NCBI RefSeq assembly: GCF_009882935.1
Contig: NZ_WTVA01000003.1
Location: forward strand, 1-64,000
Length of the DNA: 64,000 nucleotides
Direction: 5' to 3'
Origin: Sneathiella chungangensis
GTDB taxonomy: Bacteria > Pseudomonadota > Alphaproteobacteria > Sneathiellales > Sneathiellaceae
The translations under genes were made by a program, and so were the position numbers. Numbering within the stretch: position 1 is the stretch's first letter; each line of letters opens with the position of its first letter. A model generated the notes under the pieces. That model had not been told where the DNA came from and made no database searches. It saw nothing but the letters and a program-made list of their open reading frames with translations. Below, one piece after another: positions 6,313 to 53,695 of the stretch.

Positions 6313-7244
6313 GGTTCCAGGTCCAGCTCGCCGATTACCCGGTTGATCGGCAGATTGGCGAGATCGTCTTCCCGCAGGACCCGGACATCTTGCCCCCGTG
6401 GGCGCGACATATTCGGATCGGAGGCGCGGGAGAACAGCACGATGGTCTTGCAGCCGACGGCCGAAATGAGATGGAGCGGTCCCGTATCGTTGCCCACCGC
6501 GAGCATCGCGCCCGCACCCAGCGACGCGATGTCGCCGAAATCGGTCTGCGAGGAAAGGTCGATGGCGGCGGGGCAGGAGCTGCGGATTTTTTCGATCGCC
6601 TCGGCCTCCGCCTTGCCGCCGATCAGGACGGGGGTGATACCCTTGTCATCAAGATATTCCGCAAGTTCGGCGAACCGGATAGCGGGCCAGCGCTTTTCCG
6701 GACGATGGGCCGATCCGCCCGGCACTAGCAGGGCGTATTTCGTCGGCAGGTCGAATCTCGAAATATCCGTCATCGCCCAGGAAAAATCGACCGGTGGGAC
6801 ATTGTCGATGCCGGCGACCTTCAACTGATCGATATGCCGCTCGATCGTGTGGATTTTGGTCCTGAGCGGACTGTCGTGCGGATGCGAGCAGCCCTTGGCG
6901 ATCCCGCACCATTCGGGCTTTCGCCATTTCGGGAAGAAGCGGAAATAGGAATTGCTGCGGGTGGAGGTTTGCAGATCATAGACCCGGTCGAAACGCCCGC
7001 CGCGAAGTTTCCGGATCAGCGGGATCAGCTTGGAAAGCTGCCAGAGTTTCGGTCGTTCATCGATCCAGATATCATCGAACAGGCCGGATTTTTCAAGAAA
7101 TGCCGCGAAGGGACGCGTCGTCAGTAGAACGATGCGCGCATCGCCATGATGGGCGCGGATCGCCTGAAACGGACCCTGCGCCAGGATCACGTCACCAAGC
7201 GCGCCATGCTTGATGACCAGAATATTCCGGCCCTTGCCCGCCAA
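6309..7244 (-). CDS. glycosyltransferase family 9 (heptosyltransferase-like)
   Basis: 311-residue GT9 enzyme resembling WaaC/WaaF/WaaQ heptosyltransferases of LPS core synthesis. Visible marks are KHGALGDVILAQGPFQAIR at residues 13-31, VPGGSAHRPEKRWP in the second domain, and the donor-site NDTGPLHLISAVG starting at N252. It starts on the base after the stop of the MotB-like gene and overlaps the next glycosyltransferase by four bases, so it is tightly coupled on both sides. Acceptor and sugar cannot be told from the sequence. Confidence 0.82.
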   Translation of the reverse strand: MAGKGRNILVIKHGALGDVILAQGPFQAIRAHHGDARIVLLTTRPFAAFLEKSGLFDDIWIDERPKLWQLSKLIPLIRKLRGGRFDRVYDLQTSTRSNSYFRFFPKWRKPEWCGIAKGCSHPHDSPLRTKIHTIERHIDQLKVAGIDNVPPVDFSWAMTDISRFDLPTKYALLVPGGSAHRPEKRWPAIRFAELAEYLDDKGITPVLIGGKAEAEAIEKIRSSCPAAIDLSSQTDFGDIASLGAGAMLAVGNDTGPLHLISAVGCKTIVLFSRASDPNMSRPRGQDVRVLREDDLANLPINRVIGELDLEP

Positions 7245-8606
7245 TTAACGCTCCGTCAGCTTCAGCTCGATACGGCGGTTCCTGAGATAGCCGATCTCGT
7301 CATCGCGCGAATCGATGGGCTGGAATTCGCCAAAACCGGTGGCCGCCAGCCGGTTCGGCGGAACGCCCTGGCTGATCAGGAACTTGGTGACGGAGACCGC
7401 TCGCGCCGTCGACAATTCCCAGTTGGAGGGGAAGCGCGCCGTGCTGATGGGCTGCTTGTCCGTATGGCCGTCGACGCGCAGGATCCAGTCAATTCCCTTC
7501 GGAATATCCTTGGCGATCTCCAGCAGCGTCTCGGCGAACTTTGCCATATCCTGTTTGCCCTGTGGGCCGAGTTCGGCGCTGCCCGCATCGAACAGCACTT
7601 CGGACTGGAAGACGAAACGATCGCCGACGATGCTGATGCCGGGACGGTTCTTGAGAACTTCGCGGAGCTTGCCGAAGAATTCGGAGCGGTATTGCTGCAA
7701 TTCCTGGACCTTTGCGGCGAGCGCCTGGTTGAGGCGCTTGCCAAGATCGGCAATCTGCGCCTGCTGCTCAATATCCTTGGCTTCACTCGCATCAAGCGCG
7801 GCGTTCAGCTTCGCCAGTTCCGCGCGAAGGGCGTTGATCTGCGTATTGAGCAACGCGACCTGAGAGCGGGCGGCGGCGGAGAGCTTTTCCTCTTCCGTCA
7901 GCTTGTCCTGCGTCTGCAGATAGAGCGTTTGCAGCTCGGCGAGTCGGATTTCCCGCTCCTCGATATCCTTCTGGGCGAGATTGGTGCGTTCCTGCTCGTC
8001 GGCGATCCGCGCTTCCAACTCCTTGCTGCGATCCCGAAGAGAGCCGATTTCCGTATCTTTGGCTTCAATGGTTGCCGCCAGCTTGCCAACCTCGTCTTCG
8101 AGTTTCTTGCGGGTTTCCTCGAGCGCCGCAATATCGCGTTTCAGGCTTTCAAGCTCGGCGAGGTTCGCTTTCAGGGCCTCTTCGCTCACCGCCGCCTTTT
8201 CTTCCGCTGCCGCCGTTTTCTCCTTTTCTTCCCGCAGGAGGACGGTAAGACGATCCCGATCCTCTTCCGCGGAAAGGGCGCGGCTGGTCAGCGTATCGAG
8301 CTGGATAATGACGCTGTCCCGTTCTTCCTGAAGCTTCGTCATGTCGAGATTGAGCTGGGCGATCTGGTTTTCGAGATTGGCGCTGGTGCGCCGCTCGATC
8401 GCCAGAAGATCGGCGAGTTCGTTGACCTGCTGATTGAGTTTTTCGAGCGCGGCGTCGCGGCCGGACAGGGCCTGGCTCAAGAAAAACTGCGCCAGAACGA
8501 AGACCACCAGAAGGAAGATGATGACCAGCAGAAGGGTTGTCAGCGCGTCGACAAATCCGGGCCAGATCTCGTATGGAGCGCGTTGTCCGCGGCGTCTACG
8601 AGCCAT
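7245..8606 (-). CDS. MotB/OmpA-like peptidoglycan-binding protein with long coiled coil
   Basis: 453-residue inner-membrane protein. A basic N-terminus leads to one membrane helix (about residues 21-44) preceded by PGFVDALTT, whose D20 is placed like the proton-carrying aspartate of MotB/ExbD/TolR. Residues 50-300 form a long Glu/Lys/Ala-rich coiled coil. The C-terminal OmpA domain (about 315-450) has VLFDAGSAEL, DGHTD, NWELSTARA and RNRRIEL, the residues that bind diaminopimelate in peptidoglycan. This suggests a proton-driven unit reaching the cell wall together with the MotA-like protein just upstream. It is not flagellar MotB by context, since no flagellar gene is near. Confidence 0.8.
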   Translation of the reverse strand: MARRRRGQRAPYEIWPGFVDALTTLLLVIIFLLVVFVLAQFFLSQALSGRDAALEKLNQQVNELADLLAIERRTSANLENQIAQLNLDMTKLQEERDSVIIQLDTLTSRALSAEEDRDRLTVLLREEKEKTAAAEEKAAVSEEALKANLAELESLKRDIAALEETRKKLEDEVGKLAATIEAKDTEIGSLRDRSKELEARIADEQERTNLAQKDIEEREIRLAELQTLYLQTQDKLTEEEKLSAAARSQVALLNTQINALRAELAKLNAALDASEAKDIEQQAQIADLGKRLNQALAAKVQELQQYRSEFFGKLREVLKNRPGISIVGDRFVFQSEVLFDAGSAELGPQGKQDMAKFAETLLEIAKDIPKGIDWILRVDGHTDKQPISTARFPSNWELSTARAVSVTKFLISQGVPPNRLAATGFGEFQPIDSRDDEIGYLRNRRIELKLTER

Positions 8607-8638
8607 AATTTACTCCGTCGTCAGCGGCGGGCATCGTC

Positions 8639-9844
8639 TCACCCACGGCGGCTTTCTTCCGCAATGGCGGCGATGGTCCGGGTCAGCAGCTTGATATCGC
8701 TCCGGATTTCCTGAACCACCTGCTCGCGGCCATCTGCGGTCTCCTCCATCATGCGGACCATATGAACATCCAGATTGCGAAGATGATTGCGGCTTGCCTG
8801 ATCGAGACCGGCGCTTTCGGCGGATTTGGCGAGCCGTTCAAGAAGCGGTTTGAGTTCCGTCTGTCCTTCCGCAAGCTTGATCAGCAGGTCTTGCTCGGCG
8901 CGCATCTGGTCCGTCAGTGCTGCCAGCCGTTCGCTGAGATTGATCAGGGAATTCTCCGCCGAGCCGCGCTTGTCCTCATTCCGGGCGAGGGTGCGCTGGA
9001 GATTGTTGAGGCTTTCCGCCGTCTGCTCGAGCAGCGCCTGCACATAGGCGGGAACGCTCTGGTCGCCATCGGCGATGACGGTCGAGCCGGAGCTGGTGAA
9101 ACGGGTGATCGAGGTCAGCCATTCCTCAAGATCGCCGTAGAAGCGGTTCTGCGCCTGTCCTGCCTGCATATCCAGGAAGCCGAGGACCAGGGAGCCCGAG
9201 AGACCGAAGAGGGAGGATGAAAAGGCAACGGCCATGCCGGACAGCGGCTTTTCGAGGCCGAGCTTGAGATCATCGAAAATCTTGGTGAAATCGCCGCCGC
9301 CGCCGACATTGAGGGTCGAGATCGCACCGCCGACGGAATCCACCGTCTCCAGCAATCCCCAGAAGGTGCCGAGGAGGCCGAGAAAGACCAGCACGTTGAT
9401 CAGGTAGCGCGAAATGTCCCGCCCTTCGTCGAGGCGAGAACTGACGCTATCGAGCAGGGTGTTCATCGTGACGGCGCTGAGGCGGACGGGCCCCTTGCTG
9501 TCATTGAAGATTGTCGAGAGCGGAGCCAGCAGGCGCGGCGCACGCACGGTCGGTTGGCTTGAATCCAGTCGGCGCAGGCTTTGCGTCCAGTTAATCTCGC
9601 CCGACAGCATGAACACCTGACGGAAGATAAACAGGATACCAAACAGCAGTACAAGGATTATCAGACCGTTCAACAGCGGGTTGGCGAGAAACGCGGTCTG
9701 GATCTGCGGATAGAGAAAGGCCGAGATTGCGACGGCGATGCCGACAAAGATGACCATCCGGATGAGATGACGGCGCGGTTTCTTGATGTTGGGGGTTCCG
9801 GCCAGGCTATGGGTTTCGACGTTGGAATATGTGGACATGGTCAC
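8639..9844 (-). CDS. MotA/TolQ/ExbB family proton-channel-like protein
   Basis: 401-residue membrane protein. Two membrane helices lie near residues 27-80 and a second pair near 145-215, with the VFLGLLGTFWGLLETV helix characteristic of the MotA/TolQ/ExbB family. The remaining 180 residues are a soluble, helical tail with NLSERLAALTDQMRAEQDL. Large cytoplasmic tails are unusual for TolQ but known in MotA-like and ZorA-like proteins. The GTG at 9844 overlaps the stop of the upstream gene (GTGA); an ATG at 9838 is an equally possible start. It should form the ion channel with the OmpA-like gene 32 bases downstream. Confidence 0.75.
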   Translation of the reverse strand: MTMSTYSNVETHSLAGTPNIKKPRRHLIRMVIFVGIAVAISAFLYPQIQTAFLANPLLNGLIILVLLFGILFIFRQVFMLSGEINWTQSLRRLDSSQPTVRAPRLLAPLSTIFNDSKGPVRLSAVTMNTLLDSVSSRLDEGRDISRYLINVLVFLGLLGTFWGLLETVDSVGGAISTLNVGGGGDFTKIFDDLKLGLEKPLSGMAVAFSSSLFGLSGSLVLGFLDMQAGQAQNRFYGDLEEWLTSITRFTSSGSTVIADGDQSVPAYVQALLEQTAESLNNLQRTLARNEDKRGSAENSLINLSERLAALTDQMRAEQDLLIKLAEGQTELKPLLERLAKSAESAGLDQASRNHLRNLDVHMVRMMEETADGREQVVQEIRSDIKLLTRTIAAIAEESRRG

Positions 9845-48237: not shown

Positions 48238-50286
48238 ATGTCACTTGCCGAGAAAATGGATATGCCGCCGGAATCGGTGCCGGCAGGCAGTGGAGGAATG
48301 CTGGAAGGCAGGTTCCGTATTGACCTTTCCCGGCCGGTCGACTTCCTTCAGGGCGGCGTCAATATGGCCGTTCAGGCGGCGGATATGCAGGATCCATCGC
48401 AGGAACGTTTCGCTGTCGTTTCAACCCCTTATAGCTCTTACCGTCGGCAAATCGCGCAACTGATGATGGAAAGCCGCATCCCGGGGATGATTGATCTCCT
48501 GGCGCGCGGAACGGTTCGGTTTTCCGAGACCGACGTCCGCTATGTATCGGTTTTCGATCTGCCGAGGGGAGGCCGGCTTTTCACCGACTCCGAGGGTGCG
48601 ATCGCCGAGAATCTGGTGCTCGACTACGTGCTGCCGCCTGTCAGTGCCGCCCTGTTGACCCTGCATCGCGCCGGATTGACCCATCGTGCCATCCGCGCGG
48701 ATAATCTTTTTTTCGCCGATGCGGAACGCAGTCAGGTGATCGTCGGCGAGGCAATCACGACGGCGCCGGGATCGCTCCAGCCCGACGTCTACGAGCCGCA
48801 GGAAAGCGCGTCGGCGCATCCCTATGGCCGCGGCGACGGCACGCCGGCGGACGATATCTATGCCGTCGGCATCCTGATGCTGCATCTTCTGACCGGCCGG
48901 CTGCCGGGCGCGGATATGAGCGCGGACGAGATTTATCGCGGCAAACTCGGGCAGGGAACATTCGCGCTTCTCGCCGAGGATTTGGACCTGTCCTCGCGCA
49001 TCAGCGATGTTCTGGCAGGCCTGCTTCATGATGACCCAAAACGGCGCTGGAATGTTGAAACGCTCATCAACTGGCGGGATGCCATCAAGGAATCGCCGAG
49101 GCGCGGGCGCGGGGACCGGCGTGCCTTTTCCAAAATCCTGTTTGACGGGGAGGAGTATAACTCGCCGCGCCTGCTTGCCCATGAGATGACGAAACGGCCG
49201 AAGTCGGCGGTGGAACTTCTGCAAAGCGGCCGGCTGGAGAAATGGGTGCGGAACTCGCTCCGCGACGAGGACGCCTCGAAGGAGATATCTCATATCCAGA
49301 GCAGCTCGGCGGGCGCGCCGCGCGGACAGAAACGCAACGGGACGACGGCGGTGACGCAGGCGACGCGCCTTCTCGACCCTGACGGTCCTTTGTGGTACCG
49401 CAATGTTTCTTTCACCCGGGGCGCCATCGGCAACCTGATGCTGCAGGCCTATCAGCTCGACGATACGGAAATGAAGAAGTCGATCGCCGAGCTGTTCGAG
49501 AGCGGGCTGCTGCTGACCATGGCCGTCTCGGAGATACGCGAAAACAAGGAAAAACGCGCGGAATGGATGTCCGAAAGCGCCATTTCCAACTGTTTTGACT
49601 ATATGAAACGGAGCCGCGACCTCGGCTACGGGCTGGAACGGTGCCTTTATGAGTTGAACCCGGTCACGCCCTGCCTAAGCCCTCTGGTGCTTGGCTCCCA
49701 TGTGAAGAACGTCCCCGATTTCCTTACGATCGCCGAGAAGAAGCTTGTTTCCGCCAACGGGCAGGGCAATCCCTTCGACCGTCACGCGGCTGCCTTCATC
49801 GCCAGCAAGTCGAAGGGGCTCGACAAATATCTGAAAACATTATCCTATCATGCGCCGGGCAGCGTGCCGCATACACTTGTGCAGCTCAAACTCTTTGCCA
49901 AACTCCAGGCTGTCGCTCATCCGGCCCCGCTTCCGGGTTTCGCCGCCTGGGCCGAGGAAATGCTGAAGCCGGTATTCGCCAAGATCCGCTCCCGCCTGCG
50001 CCGGGAAGTGATCAGCCAGCGCTTCAAGGAAGCGAAGAAAAGCGGCAATCTTGAAACGATCCTCACGGCGACGGATATCGAACGGCAGATCGCCGCGGAT
50101 TCGCGCGAATATGAGAATGCGCTCGCGACCGCCACGCAAGCGGACCAGATGGCCGCCTTTCTCGCCAACGGAACCGAACATCGCCGCGCCGCCGCCAATC
50201 ACTACGGGGCCTGGATCACCTCGGTTCTTTCGGTGACGTCGCTGATTACCAGCATGGTGCTGTCCGCGCTTTACTTCATGGGATAG
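48238..50286 (+). CDS. tail-anchored protein-kinase-like pseudokinase
   Basis: 682-residue protein whose N-terminal 280 residues follow the eukaryotic-type kinase order without its catalytic residues. The catalytic loop is HRAIRADN (149-156) in place of HRDIKPEN, the metal-binding DFG position reads VGEA (169-172), and no glycine loop or VAIK lysine is seen. Subdomain IX survives as ADDIYAVGILMLHLLTG (204-220). A charged, helical middle region follows, and a single membrane helix sits at the very C-terminus (about 656-680, ITSVLSVTSLITSMVLSALYF), so the bulk should be cytoplasmic. Coupled to a small membrane protein four bases downstream. Function unknown; a scaffold or regulator is inferred. 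Confidence 0.7.
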   Translation: MSLAEKMDMPPESVPAGSGGMLEGRFRIDLSRPVDFLQGGVNMAVQAADMQDPSQERFAVVSTPYSSYRRQIAQLMMESRIPGMIDLLARGTVRFSETDVRYVSVFDLPRGGRLFTDSEGAIAENLVLDYVLPPVSAALLTLHRAGLTHRAIRADNLFFADAERSQVIVGEAITTAPGSLQPDVYEPQESASAHPYGRGDGTPADDIYAVGILMLHLLTGRLPGADMSADEIYRGKLGQGTFALLAEDLDLSSRISDVLAGLLHDDPKRRWNVETLINWRDAIKESPRRGRGDRRAFSKILFDGEEYNSPRLLAHEMTKRPKSAVELLQSGRLEKWVRNSLRDEDASKEISHIQSSSAGAPRGQKRNGTTAVTQATRLLDPDGPLWYRNVSFTRGAIGNLMLQAYQLDDTEMKKSIAELFESGLLLTMAVSEIRENKEKRAEWMSESAISNCFDYMKRSRDLGYGLERCLYELNPVTPCLSPLVLGSHVKNVPDFLTIAEKKLVSANGQGNPFDRHAAAFIASKSKGLDKYLKTLSYHAPGSVPHTLVQLKLFAKLQAVAHPAPLPGFAAWAEEMLKPVFAKIRSRLRREVISQRFKEAKKSGNLETILTATDIERQIAADSREYENALATATQADQMAAFLANGTEHRRAAANHYGAWITSVLSVTSLITSMVLSALYFMG

Positions 50287-50290
50287 GAAT

Positions 50291-50788
50291 ATGGCAAAGG
50301 ATACGAAAAAAGCGGCAGCAAAGACGGAAAGCAAGGTCGGCCAGAATATCGCGATCTTCTGGCTGTTGATACTTTCCGGGCTTGGGATCGTTTTCATTCC
50401 GCCGACCATGATCGTTATCTTTGCCGGAATGATCCCGAGCCTTGTGGCGATTTTGCTGAATACCGAACGGACAGGCGGGATCGCGACGATGATCTCCTTC
50501 AATCTTGCGGGTGTGATCCCGGTTGTCGGCATCCTGTGGGAGCGGGGGCAGACCTTTAGCGAGGCCCTGAAGATTCTCTCCGACGTCTATATGTGGCTTG
50601 CCATGTTCGGCGGGGCGGGGCTGGCGGTTTTCCTCACCTGGGCCGTGCCGGTCGTCGTTTTCTCCGCCTATGAGCTGCAGGCCAAGGCGAATATCGCGAA
50701 ATTGCAGAAGCGGCGTGCCAAGCTGATCGAGGAATGGGGCGGGCAGTTCGTCGCCGACATGAGAGACATCCCGAAAGCGCCGCAATAA
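50291..50788 (+). CDS. small membrane protein paired with the pseudokinase
   Basis: 165-residue protein with a Lys-rich start, about four hydrophobic stretches (near residues 22-40, 43-58, 67-82 and 100-127) and a charged C-terminal helix (QAKANIAKLQKRRAKLIEEW). No family recognised. It begins four bases after the pseudokinase stop, so the two are one unit and may form a complex in the inner membrane. Confidence 0.65.
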   Translation: MAKDTKKAAAKTESKVGQNIAIFWLLILSGLGIVFIPPTMIVIFAGMIPSLVAILLNTERTGGIATMISFNLAGVIPVVGILWERGQTFSEALKILSDVYMWLAMFGGAGLAVFLTWAVPVVVFSAYELQAKANIAKLQKRRAKLIEEWGGQFVADMRDIPKAPQ

Positions 50789-50881
50789 TCTCATTCCCGG
50801 CGTCATGTTGAAGGACTGGAAATAATGCGCTCCTTTGGGCATAGTTCCGCGATACAAAAACCGCAACAAGGAAAGCTAAAA

Positions 50882-51241
50882 ATGACGGGACATGTTTACT
50901 GGATCTTCGATTTGGAGATCAGGGACGGGGCGTATGACAAATTCGAAGCGCTGATGGGGGAGATGATCGCCGCGACGAAGGCGGACGAGCCGGGCGCGCT
51001 CAACTATGAATGGTCGGTGAGCGAGGACAAGAAAACCTGCCATATTCTGGAGCGGTTCGAAAATTCCGACGCGGCGCTGATCCATATGGGTAATTTCGGC
51101 AGCAAATTTGCGGCTCGCTTTATGGACGTGCTAACGCCCAGAAAAATGACTGTCTATGGGGACCCGTCGGAAAAGGTGATGAAAGGACTGTCACGGATGG
51201 GTGCGGTTCAAATGCCGTCGGTCGGCGGCTTCTCCCGTTAG
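50882..51241 (+). CDS. antibiotic biosynthesis monooxygenase (ABM) domain protein
   Basis: 119-residue ferredoxin-like alpha/beta protein of the ABM family, starting at the ATG at 50882, nine bases after AAGGAAA. YWIFDLEIRDGAYDKFEALM (residues 6-25), PGALNYEWSVSEDKKTCHILERF in two parts and an H/N-containing helix are typical. Members range from quinol monooxygenases to heme-degrading or unknown proteins, so no reaction is assigned. It is 93 bases after the membrane protein; whether it belongs to that operon is open. A terminator follows. Confidence 0.7.
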   Translation: MTGHVYWIFDLEIRDGAYDKFEALMGEMIAATKADEPGALNYEWSVSEDKKTCHILERFENSDAALIHMGNFGSKFAARFMDVLTPRKMTVYGDPSEKVMKGLSRMGAVQMPSVGGFSR

Positions 51242-53311: not shown

Positions 53312-53695
53312 ATGTCAGACCAATCGGATCAGGATCCCGGTCCAAATCTCACCTTGTTGAAATGGGTTGTCGGGATTCTCGGCTTCCTGATCGTCCTGTT
53401 TGCCGGCATCATAGCGGTTACCATATTTGCCCGCCTGACAGCAACGGAAACCGAAACACCGCCGATGGAGGACGAAGCCGCCCTCCCGGCGTCCCGGGGC
53501 GCGCCGCTTGCGGTGTTCGGCGATATCCGCCTGCCGATCCCGGACGATATGGATGTGCTGGCCCTGACCCCGTCGCAGGAGCGGCTGTTCGTCACCCTCG
53601 GGACCGAAGGTGCGGCGCGGCTCATTCTGGTGGTCAGCCTGAATGACGGCCGGGTTCTTGGCAGCTTCAATCTTGAAAAAGATGGCATACAATAA
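53312..53695 (+). CDS. small single-helix membrane protein, DUF6476-like
   Basis: 127-residue protein with one membrane helix (about residues 14-40, LLKWVVGILGFLIVLFAGII) and a periplasmic beta-rich part (GDIRLPIPDDMDVLALTPSQ, LILVVSLNDGRVLGSF). It resembles the DUF6476 proteins found beside rluA-family genes in alphaproteobacteria, but I recall that only by context. AGGGTG precedes the ATG. Function unknown. Confidence 0.6.
   Translation: MSDQSDQDPGPNLTLLKWVVGILGFLIVLFAGIIAVTIFARLTATETETPPMEDEAALPASRGAPLAVFGDIRLPIPDDMDVLALTPSQERLFVTLGTEGAARLILVVSLNDGRVLGSFNLEKDGIQ

Follow-up and report, generated by a model that had tools for sequence, protein, structure and literature searches.

According to a review (PMC12599244), bacterial pseudokinases are largely unexplored experimentally. 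The families covered there are ActPs1-3, GLW, CP1, DYD, and DLHK; EssB, SidJ, and SelO are also treated. As described there, EssB/YukC is the pseudokinase of the type VIIb secretion system of the Firmicutes, a non-catalytic scaffold in a membrane machine; its three catalytic motifs and activation loop are degraded, and it carries a membrane span. The GLW pseudokinases are proteobacterial and have lost all three motifs, with GLW in place of HRD and Leu or Trp in place of the beta-3 Lys. The DLHK pseudokinases, linked to helicases and devoid of membrane spans, have an Arg and an Asn in the catalytic loop and retain the HRD Asp. The word alphaproteobacteria is absent from the review, and a literature search over titles and abstract openings recognised no description of the family analysed here.

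The pseudokinase gene (PK) and its partner gene, encoding a small membrane protein (MEM), are located in a window of 64,000 nucleotides from Sneathiella chungangensis (the whole stretch of DNA that was analysed). A sequence-only reading had described a protein of 682 residues, its gene four bases from that of a multi-helix membrane protein. Both ORFs were confirmed, and the bases 50287-50290 separate them on the same strand. The features are listed in Table 1.

Table 1. Features of the PK-MEM locus, in window positions.
Feature	Position	Strand	Basis
Pseudokinase gene (PK), 682 aa	48238..50286	+	ORF; Pfam Pkinase 34.0 bits
Predicted kinase-fold domain, PK residues 17-283	48286..49086	+	AlphaFold2 model md2c119b293db; VIA-align
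Beta-3 Lys site, here Val61	48418..48420	+	Lys in 2/160 relatives
HRAIRADN (149-156), replacing HRDxKxxN	48682..48705	+	HRD Asp in 1/160; Asn156 in 154/160
VGEA (169-172), replacing xDFG	48742..48753	+	DFG Asp in 1/160; Gly there in 156/160
Predicted C-terminal helical domain, residues 293-612, ~320 residues	49114..50073	+	Secondary structure of model
Family motif G463-x-G-x-E-R-x-x-Y...C479-x-S481	49624..49680	+	Each position 152-159/160
Family motif D514-x-H516	49777..49785	+	Asp 156/160, His 155/160
Predicted C-terminal helix 614-681: stalk and single membrane span ~660-681	50077..50280	+	Model; hydropathy
Small membrane protein gene (MEM), 165 aa, PK partner	50291..50788	+	ORF; hydropathy; co-occurrence

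The AlphaFold2 model of PK (mean pLDDT 90.9, pTM 0.85) was built on an alignment of 68 sequences. The best structural match is WNK1 (6cn9_A), with a Z score of 24.0 and an rmsd of 2.6 over 249 residues (VIA-align). All 999 aligned chains have Z scores of at least 8, and the best 50 are kinases, which cover the kinase part of PK only. No one kinase is singled out, because the Z score is 24.0 at best and still 22.3 at the 50th row. At the sequence level, Pfam Pkinase matches residues 97-277 just over its cut-off (34.0 against 31.7 bits), and it was found in 61 of the 68 PK members at E values up to 0.05. Kinase chains of the PDB match the PK sequence weakly (best E 6e-7), and EssB is absent among the best 60 of its 201 PDB sequence matches. 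The NCBIfam models that match PK, including class IV lanthionine synthetase and MAD6, do so in the kinase part and far under their cut-offs. On its modelled fold, PK belongs to the protein kinase superfamily. The kinase layout proposed in the sequence-only reading is thus seen in both the predicted fold at residues 17-283 (Z 24.0) and the Pfam match (34.0 bits), and a non-kinase predicted structure, named beforehand as a reason to abandon the proposal, did not arise.

The beta-3 Lys, the HRD Asp, and the DFG Asp (K/D/D) had been reported as missing, and the window protein indeed has Val61, HRAIRADN, and VGEA at these sites. The beta-3 VAIK position reads FAVV, and the glycine-rich loop is also lost, as judged by eye. 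Residue counts were made on sequences aligned to the family profile, first on 97 non-redundant ones (2 short matches and 17 near-duplicates were left out), then on 160, after 63 sequences of at least 500 aa each had been added, near-duplicates excluded. Canonical residues occur singly in four different sequences, with the HRD-site Asp in L114, the DFG-site Asp in L187, and the beta-3 Lys in L033 and L191. Two together were found in none of the 160 relatives. Homologues keeping K/D/D, which would have spoken against the proposal, are therefore not seen among these alphaproteobacterial sequences (2, 1, and 1 of 160). The beta-3 position is Val or Ile in 137/160; at the HRD site, the first residue is His in 149/160, the second Arg or Gly in 154/160, and the third Ala, Gly, Ser, or Asn in 149/160.

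The structural residues of the kinase fold are kept, namely Asn156, Glu186 of the APE motif (155/160), Asp206 of alpha-F (160/160), and Arg270 (159/160). Other well-kept positions in the kinase part are Arg153 (138/160), His149, Arg69 (154/160), and position 171, which is Glu or Asp in 145/160. The DFG Asp and APE Glu sites are 16 residues apart in every one of the 160 relatives, which makes the activation segment short and invariant in length. The loss of the catalytic residues and the retention of the structural residues across 160 relatives suggest that the family is fixed as a pseudokinase, with its fold still under constraint. With K/D/D gone, PK falls outside the catalytically competent Hanks-type kinases as far as its residues indicate; Pkinase homology together with degraded catalytic motifs places it, from its sequence, among the bacterial serine-threonine pseudokinases. 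The sole other Pkinase match of the source genome (L200, 1387-3602) has the Lys and both Asp present and is directly followed by a phosphatase-like gene. Since it keeps K/D/D, an active kinase is probably available in the source genome.

PK resembles the GLW pseudokinases of PMC12599244 in being proteobacterial and in the loss of all three motifs. However, its HRD site is mostly H-[RG]-[AGSN], and its beta-3 position mostly Val or Ile. By this motif, PK is not a GLW pseudokinase, the HRD site being HRA in the window. PK also shares the catalytic-loop Arg and Asn of DLHK, but it has lost the Asp which DLHK keeps, and has a predicted span at 660-681. With the HRD Asp in 1/160 relatives and a span present, PK is judged not to be a DLHK pseudokinase. 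Two helicase-linked kinases (L123 and L124) match the PK profile in the kinase domain and the region that follows, with E values of 8e-18 and 6e-17. The PK family is set apart from GLW and DLHK by these descriptions, and it may have a name in the larger bacterial kinase atlas that underlies the review (Sci. Signal. 2025, adt8686).

The likeness to EssB/YukC includes the degraded three motifs and activation loop and the membrane span. In contrast to the secretion system of the Firmicutes in which EssB/YukC works, no such context was recognised around PK, and the 320-residue helical domain of PK is unmentioned for EssB in the available part of PMC12599244. Likened by description, PK might be closest in manner to EssB/YukC, as a dead membrane-tethered scaffold with another domain plan and another partner.

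Relatives beyond the Alphaproteobacteria were searched in 398 genomes of the phylum. Among 25 matches to PK at E <= 1e-10, 16 are alphaproteobacterial, and the nine from other classes are partial only. The three best of these nine (L120-L122; Pkinase 125-137 bits) read as intact kinases. Their HRDIKPGNLFF is closely like the HRAIRADNLFF of PK, and the similarity extends over the kinase domain and the part directly behind it. K/D/D are intact in these three by eye, and a search found no MEM match in their loci, whereas PK has lost K/D/D and has MEM. Counted by eye, the DFG-to-APE spacing of L120 and L122 is 30, compared with 16 in the PK family. The absence of K/D/D-keeping homologues therefore holds within the Alphaproteobacteria; outside them intact relatives exist, sharing no more than the kinase domain and the adjoining stretch that follows. 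A tree built from 31 kinase domains groups the 23 alphaproteobacterial pseudokinases on one side of a branch (support 98/96). The intact L120-L122 are outside this group, and three outgroup rows have very long branches. Among the best 80 of 292 named relatives, record titles are alphaproteobacterial or unspecific, except for L084. This record, Stygiobacter sp. by title, has the pair in the alphaproteobacterial order with purA, hisZ, and serA, and its organism label is probably wrong.

In the model, the region between the kinase fold and the stalk (~310 to 612) consists mostly of helices. No consistent Pfam match to the C-terminal domain was found across the 68 PK members, and a PDB sequence search with residues 293-612 gave no match up to E = 1; by these searches, the domain appears to be of no known family. 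Profile comparisons for internal repeats gave probabilities of 0.9% at most. A scan of 369 genomes of the phylum detected the whole domain in 14, all alphaproteobacterial, and always inside a PK gene. Its first part (~297-345) is common to kinases outside the Alphaproteobacteria (L120, E 2e-8; L121, E 6e-7). Hydropathy analysis of PK showed one hydrophobic segment, residues 660-681, which agrees with the C-terminal membrane anchor proposed earlier.

MEM has three hydrophobic segments (25-43, 64-82, and ~101-124), and its structure prediction contains long helices (pLDDT 91.3, pTM 0.68), in keeping with its earlier description as a multi-helix membrane protein. Its topology is uncertain, because the net charge is positive at both ends. 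No Pfam family matches more than 2 of 48 MEM members, and the window MEM is without a Pfam match. The best E value is 0.44 against PDB sequences and 2.8 in a Foldseek search of the structure.

The gene pairing was surveyed in 385 alphaproteobacterial genomes, with thresholds of E < 1e-20 for PK and E < 1e-10 for MEM. PK was found in 131 genomes and MEM in 132. Both are present in 130, PK alone in one (G355), MEM alone in two (G056 and G069), and neither in 252. The two genomes with MEM alone are incomplete (84% and 75% completeness). Such a survey had been suggested in the sequence-only reading, and the pairing holds in it (Fisher p 3e-100, shared ancestry not corrected for). The PK count leaves out 17 genomes with weaker matches (E 7e-9 to 5.5e-4), taken as ordinary kinases; HRD is present in the two that were inspected, L034 (G028) and L035 (G031). 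One weak match (G028, E 7e-4) was left out of the MEM count. PK is more than a chance ORF, because relatives occur in 131 of 385 genomes and all but four of 160 relatives lack all three catalytic residues, the four keeping one each.

MEM lies directly downstream in 132 of 150 PK matches, some of the 150 being fragments. A more sensitive search of the retrieved loci found a weak MEM alongside two of the other 18, in G355 (L125, E 4.7e-10) and on contig 35 of G151 (L170). Among the best 80 of 292 named PK loci, MEM adjoins PK in 72, a contig end follows in two, and MEM is absent beside PK in six; in all six of these, MEM is found elsewhere in the genome. In L054, where the PK frame is broken, 950 bases separate MEM from PK. 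In one Sneathiella genome (L037, G013, 7114-9781; L054), two overlapping frames make up the PK gene, through a frameshift or an assembly error. PK and MEM genes are apart, with both present, in G055, G193, G241, and G325; in G174, they are on different contigs with MEM at a contig end, so that the separation there may be only apparent. In L203 and L206, MEM adjoins genes reading as rpoH and rluD, and the PK genes of the same genomes (L106 and L104) adjoin purA. This layout suggests that a rearrangement split the pair and that both halves were kept, which is the strongest evidence that PK and MEM work together.

Two or three PK-MEM pairs are present in G067, G151, G156, G200, G295, G298, G371, and G375. 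Gene numbers are unequal in G038 and G170, with one PK and four MEM, and in G119, G158, G258, and G339, with two PK and one MEM. The extra MEM copies away from PK (L129, L130, and L131 in G038; L195-L197 in G170) belong to two genomes of one genus. Coupling between the stalk or span and MEM was calculated on 124 pairs; the best score was beaten by 2 of 12 shuffled pairings, and the top-ten mean was above all 12. The PK and MEM distances of the 124 pairs correlate with r 0.85, a value to be expected from common descent by itself as well. MEM accompanies PK almost constantly in Alphaproteobacteria, and both the PK family and the PK-MEM pairing are well supported.

Of the best 80 of 292 named loci, 66 have purA upstream of PK and in the same orientation; some of the other 14 are short contigs. 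Often hisZ and serA precede purA, and rpoH and rluD converge from the other side. The purA-PK-MEM order looks like the product of old vertical inheritance and does not hint at a function. None of the neighbour genes of the PK loci points to a process. Clustering of neighbours for a third partner returned mainly the old gene order and scattered genes, and the gene caller took wrong-strand frames in GC-rich genomes, so that a third partner may have been missed. Downstream of the pair, the window carries an ABM-domain (antibiotic biosynthesis monooxygenase) gene at 50825-51241, which was seen there only in same-genus loci and in L048 (titled Sneathiellales). Positions 53312-53695 encode a small protein whose N-terminal part has one hydrophobic segment (by eye) and which matches DUF6476 below threshold. 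G158 has a second PK copy, without MEM, close to type VI secretion-like genes (TssA- and TssM-like, by eye; L138, 6576-14440). In G156, two tandem PK-MEM pairs lie directly upstream of flhA- and motA-like genes (by eye; L132, 2585-10901), and a third pair adjoins purA (L194).

With a probability of about 0.6, we infer that PK is a catalytically dead, membrane-tethered scaffold or sensor, which forms one inner-membrane complex with MEM. PK would be on the cytoplasmic face, tethered via its stalk and span to MEM as its membrane subunit. It would work without phosphotransfer, and the kinase fold and the C-terminal domain might bind a partner or ligand. The conservation of PK and MEM across many Alphaproteobacteria points to an old two-protein membrane unit. 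Mere inheritance of gene order, with no joint work of the two proteins, is very unlikely. The purA-PK-MEM order with converging rpoH is old and persists in most of the named loci (best 80 of 292), and the four extra PK copies of G119, G158, G258, and G339 have no MEM; however, separated genes are both kept in 6/6 named genomes and in G055, G193, G241, and G325, and some extra PK copies away from purA are also accompanied by MEM (L132, L156, and L167). A flagellar accessory unit, for which the two pairs directly before flhA- and motA-like genes in the one genome of L132 would speak, is even harder to credit. Although 118 of 131 PK genomes have flhA (FHIPEP), against 103 of 254 others, this association is confounded by ancestry. 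The flagellar role was rejected on the 13 of 131 PK genomes without flhA, several of them 95-100% complete, including all three PK-bearing genomes of family f81. A defence role was also rejected: the PADLOC matches (PD-T4-6, MkoA, and mad6) lie on the kinase domain, with that of MkoA extending to residue 353, and none of the neighbours was recognised as a defence gene.

The remaining alternatives concern what the two domains of PK do. The fold might be that of a repurposed enzyme, binding a nucleotide or ligand by its remaining polar residues and performing non-kinase chemistry like SelO and SidJ. A repurposed active site would fit the retention of Asn156 (154/160), Arg153 (138/160), the acid at 171 (145/160), His149 (149/160), and Arg69 (154/160). 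In PMC12599244, SelO is described with AMPylation and SidJ with glutamylation, and DLHK, with its catalytic-loop Arg and Asn, is modelled with ATP. However, the three canonical residues of PK are gone together, and the conserved ones could be structural. SelO and SidJ also keep a Lys in the ATP-binding motif (table of PMC12599244), whereas the near-invariant columns of PK before residue 62 contain no Lys in the sequence alignment; we regard this alternative as improbable. The same doubtful standing is given to the idea that the C-terminal domain does the work, perhaps as an enzyme using Glu467, Arg468, Cys479, Ser481, Asp514, and His516, and that the kinase fold is no more than its regulator. 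These residues of the C-terminal domain are conserved in 153-157 of 160 relatives, a level similar to that of the best-conserved sites in the kinase part, and the whole domain is found only inside PK genes in 14/14 matches; yet similarity to any enzyme was not found in Pfam or PDB sequences. In a tentative and bolder version, possible though not probable, the pair would be an undescribed ancestral alphaproteobacterial membrane complex, in which a repurposed pocket (Asn156, Arg153, the acid at 171, and Arg69) for sensing or new chemistry is coupled, through a helical domain not known before, to a membrane subunit dedicated to it.

PK occurs widely in a class that includes cultured species, has a dedicated partner, and offers clear residue predictions. 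If PK is indeed a membrane scaffold, the pair would be a new conserved two-protein membrane unit in Alphaproteobacteria, and its C-terminal part a new helical domain family.
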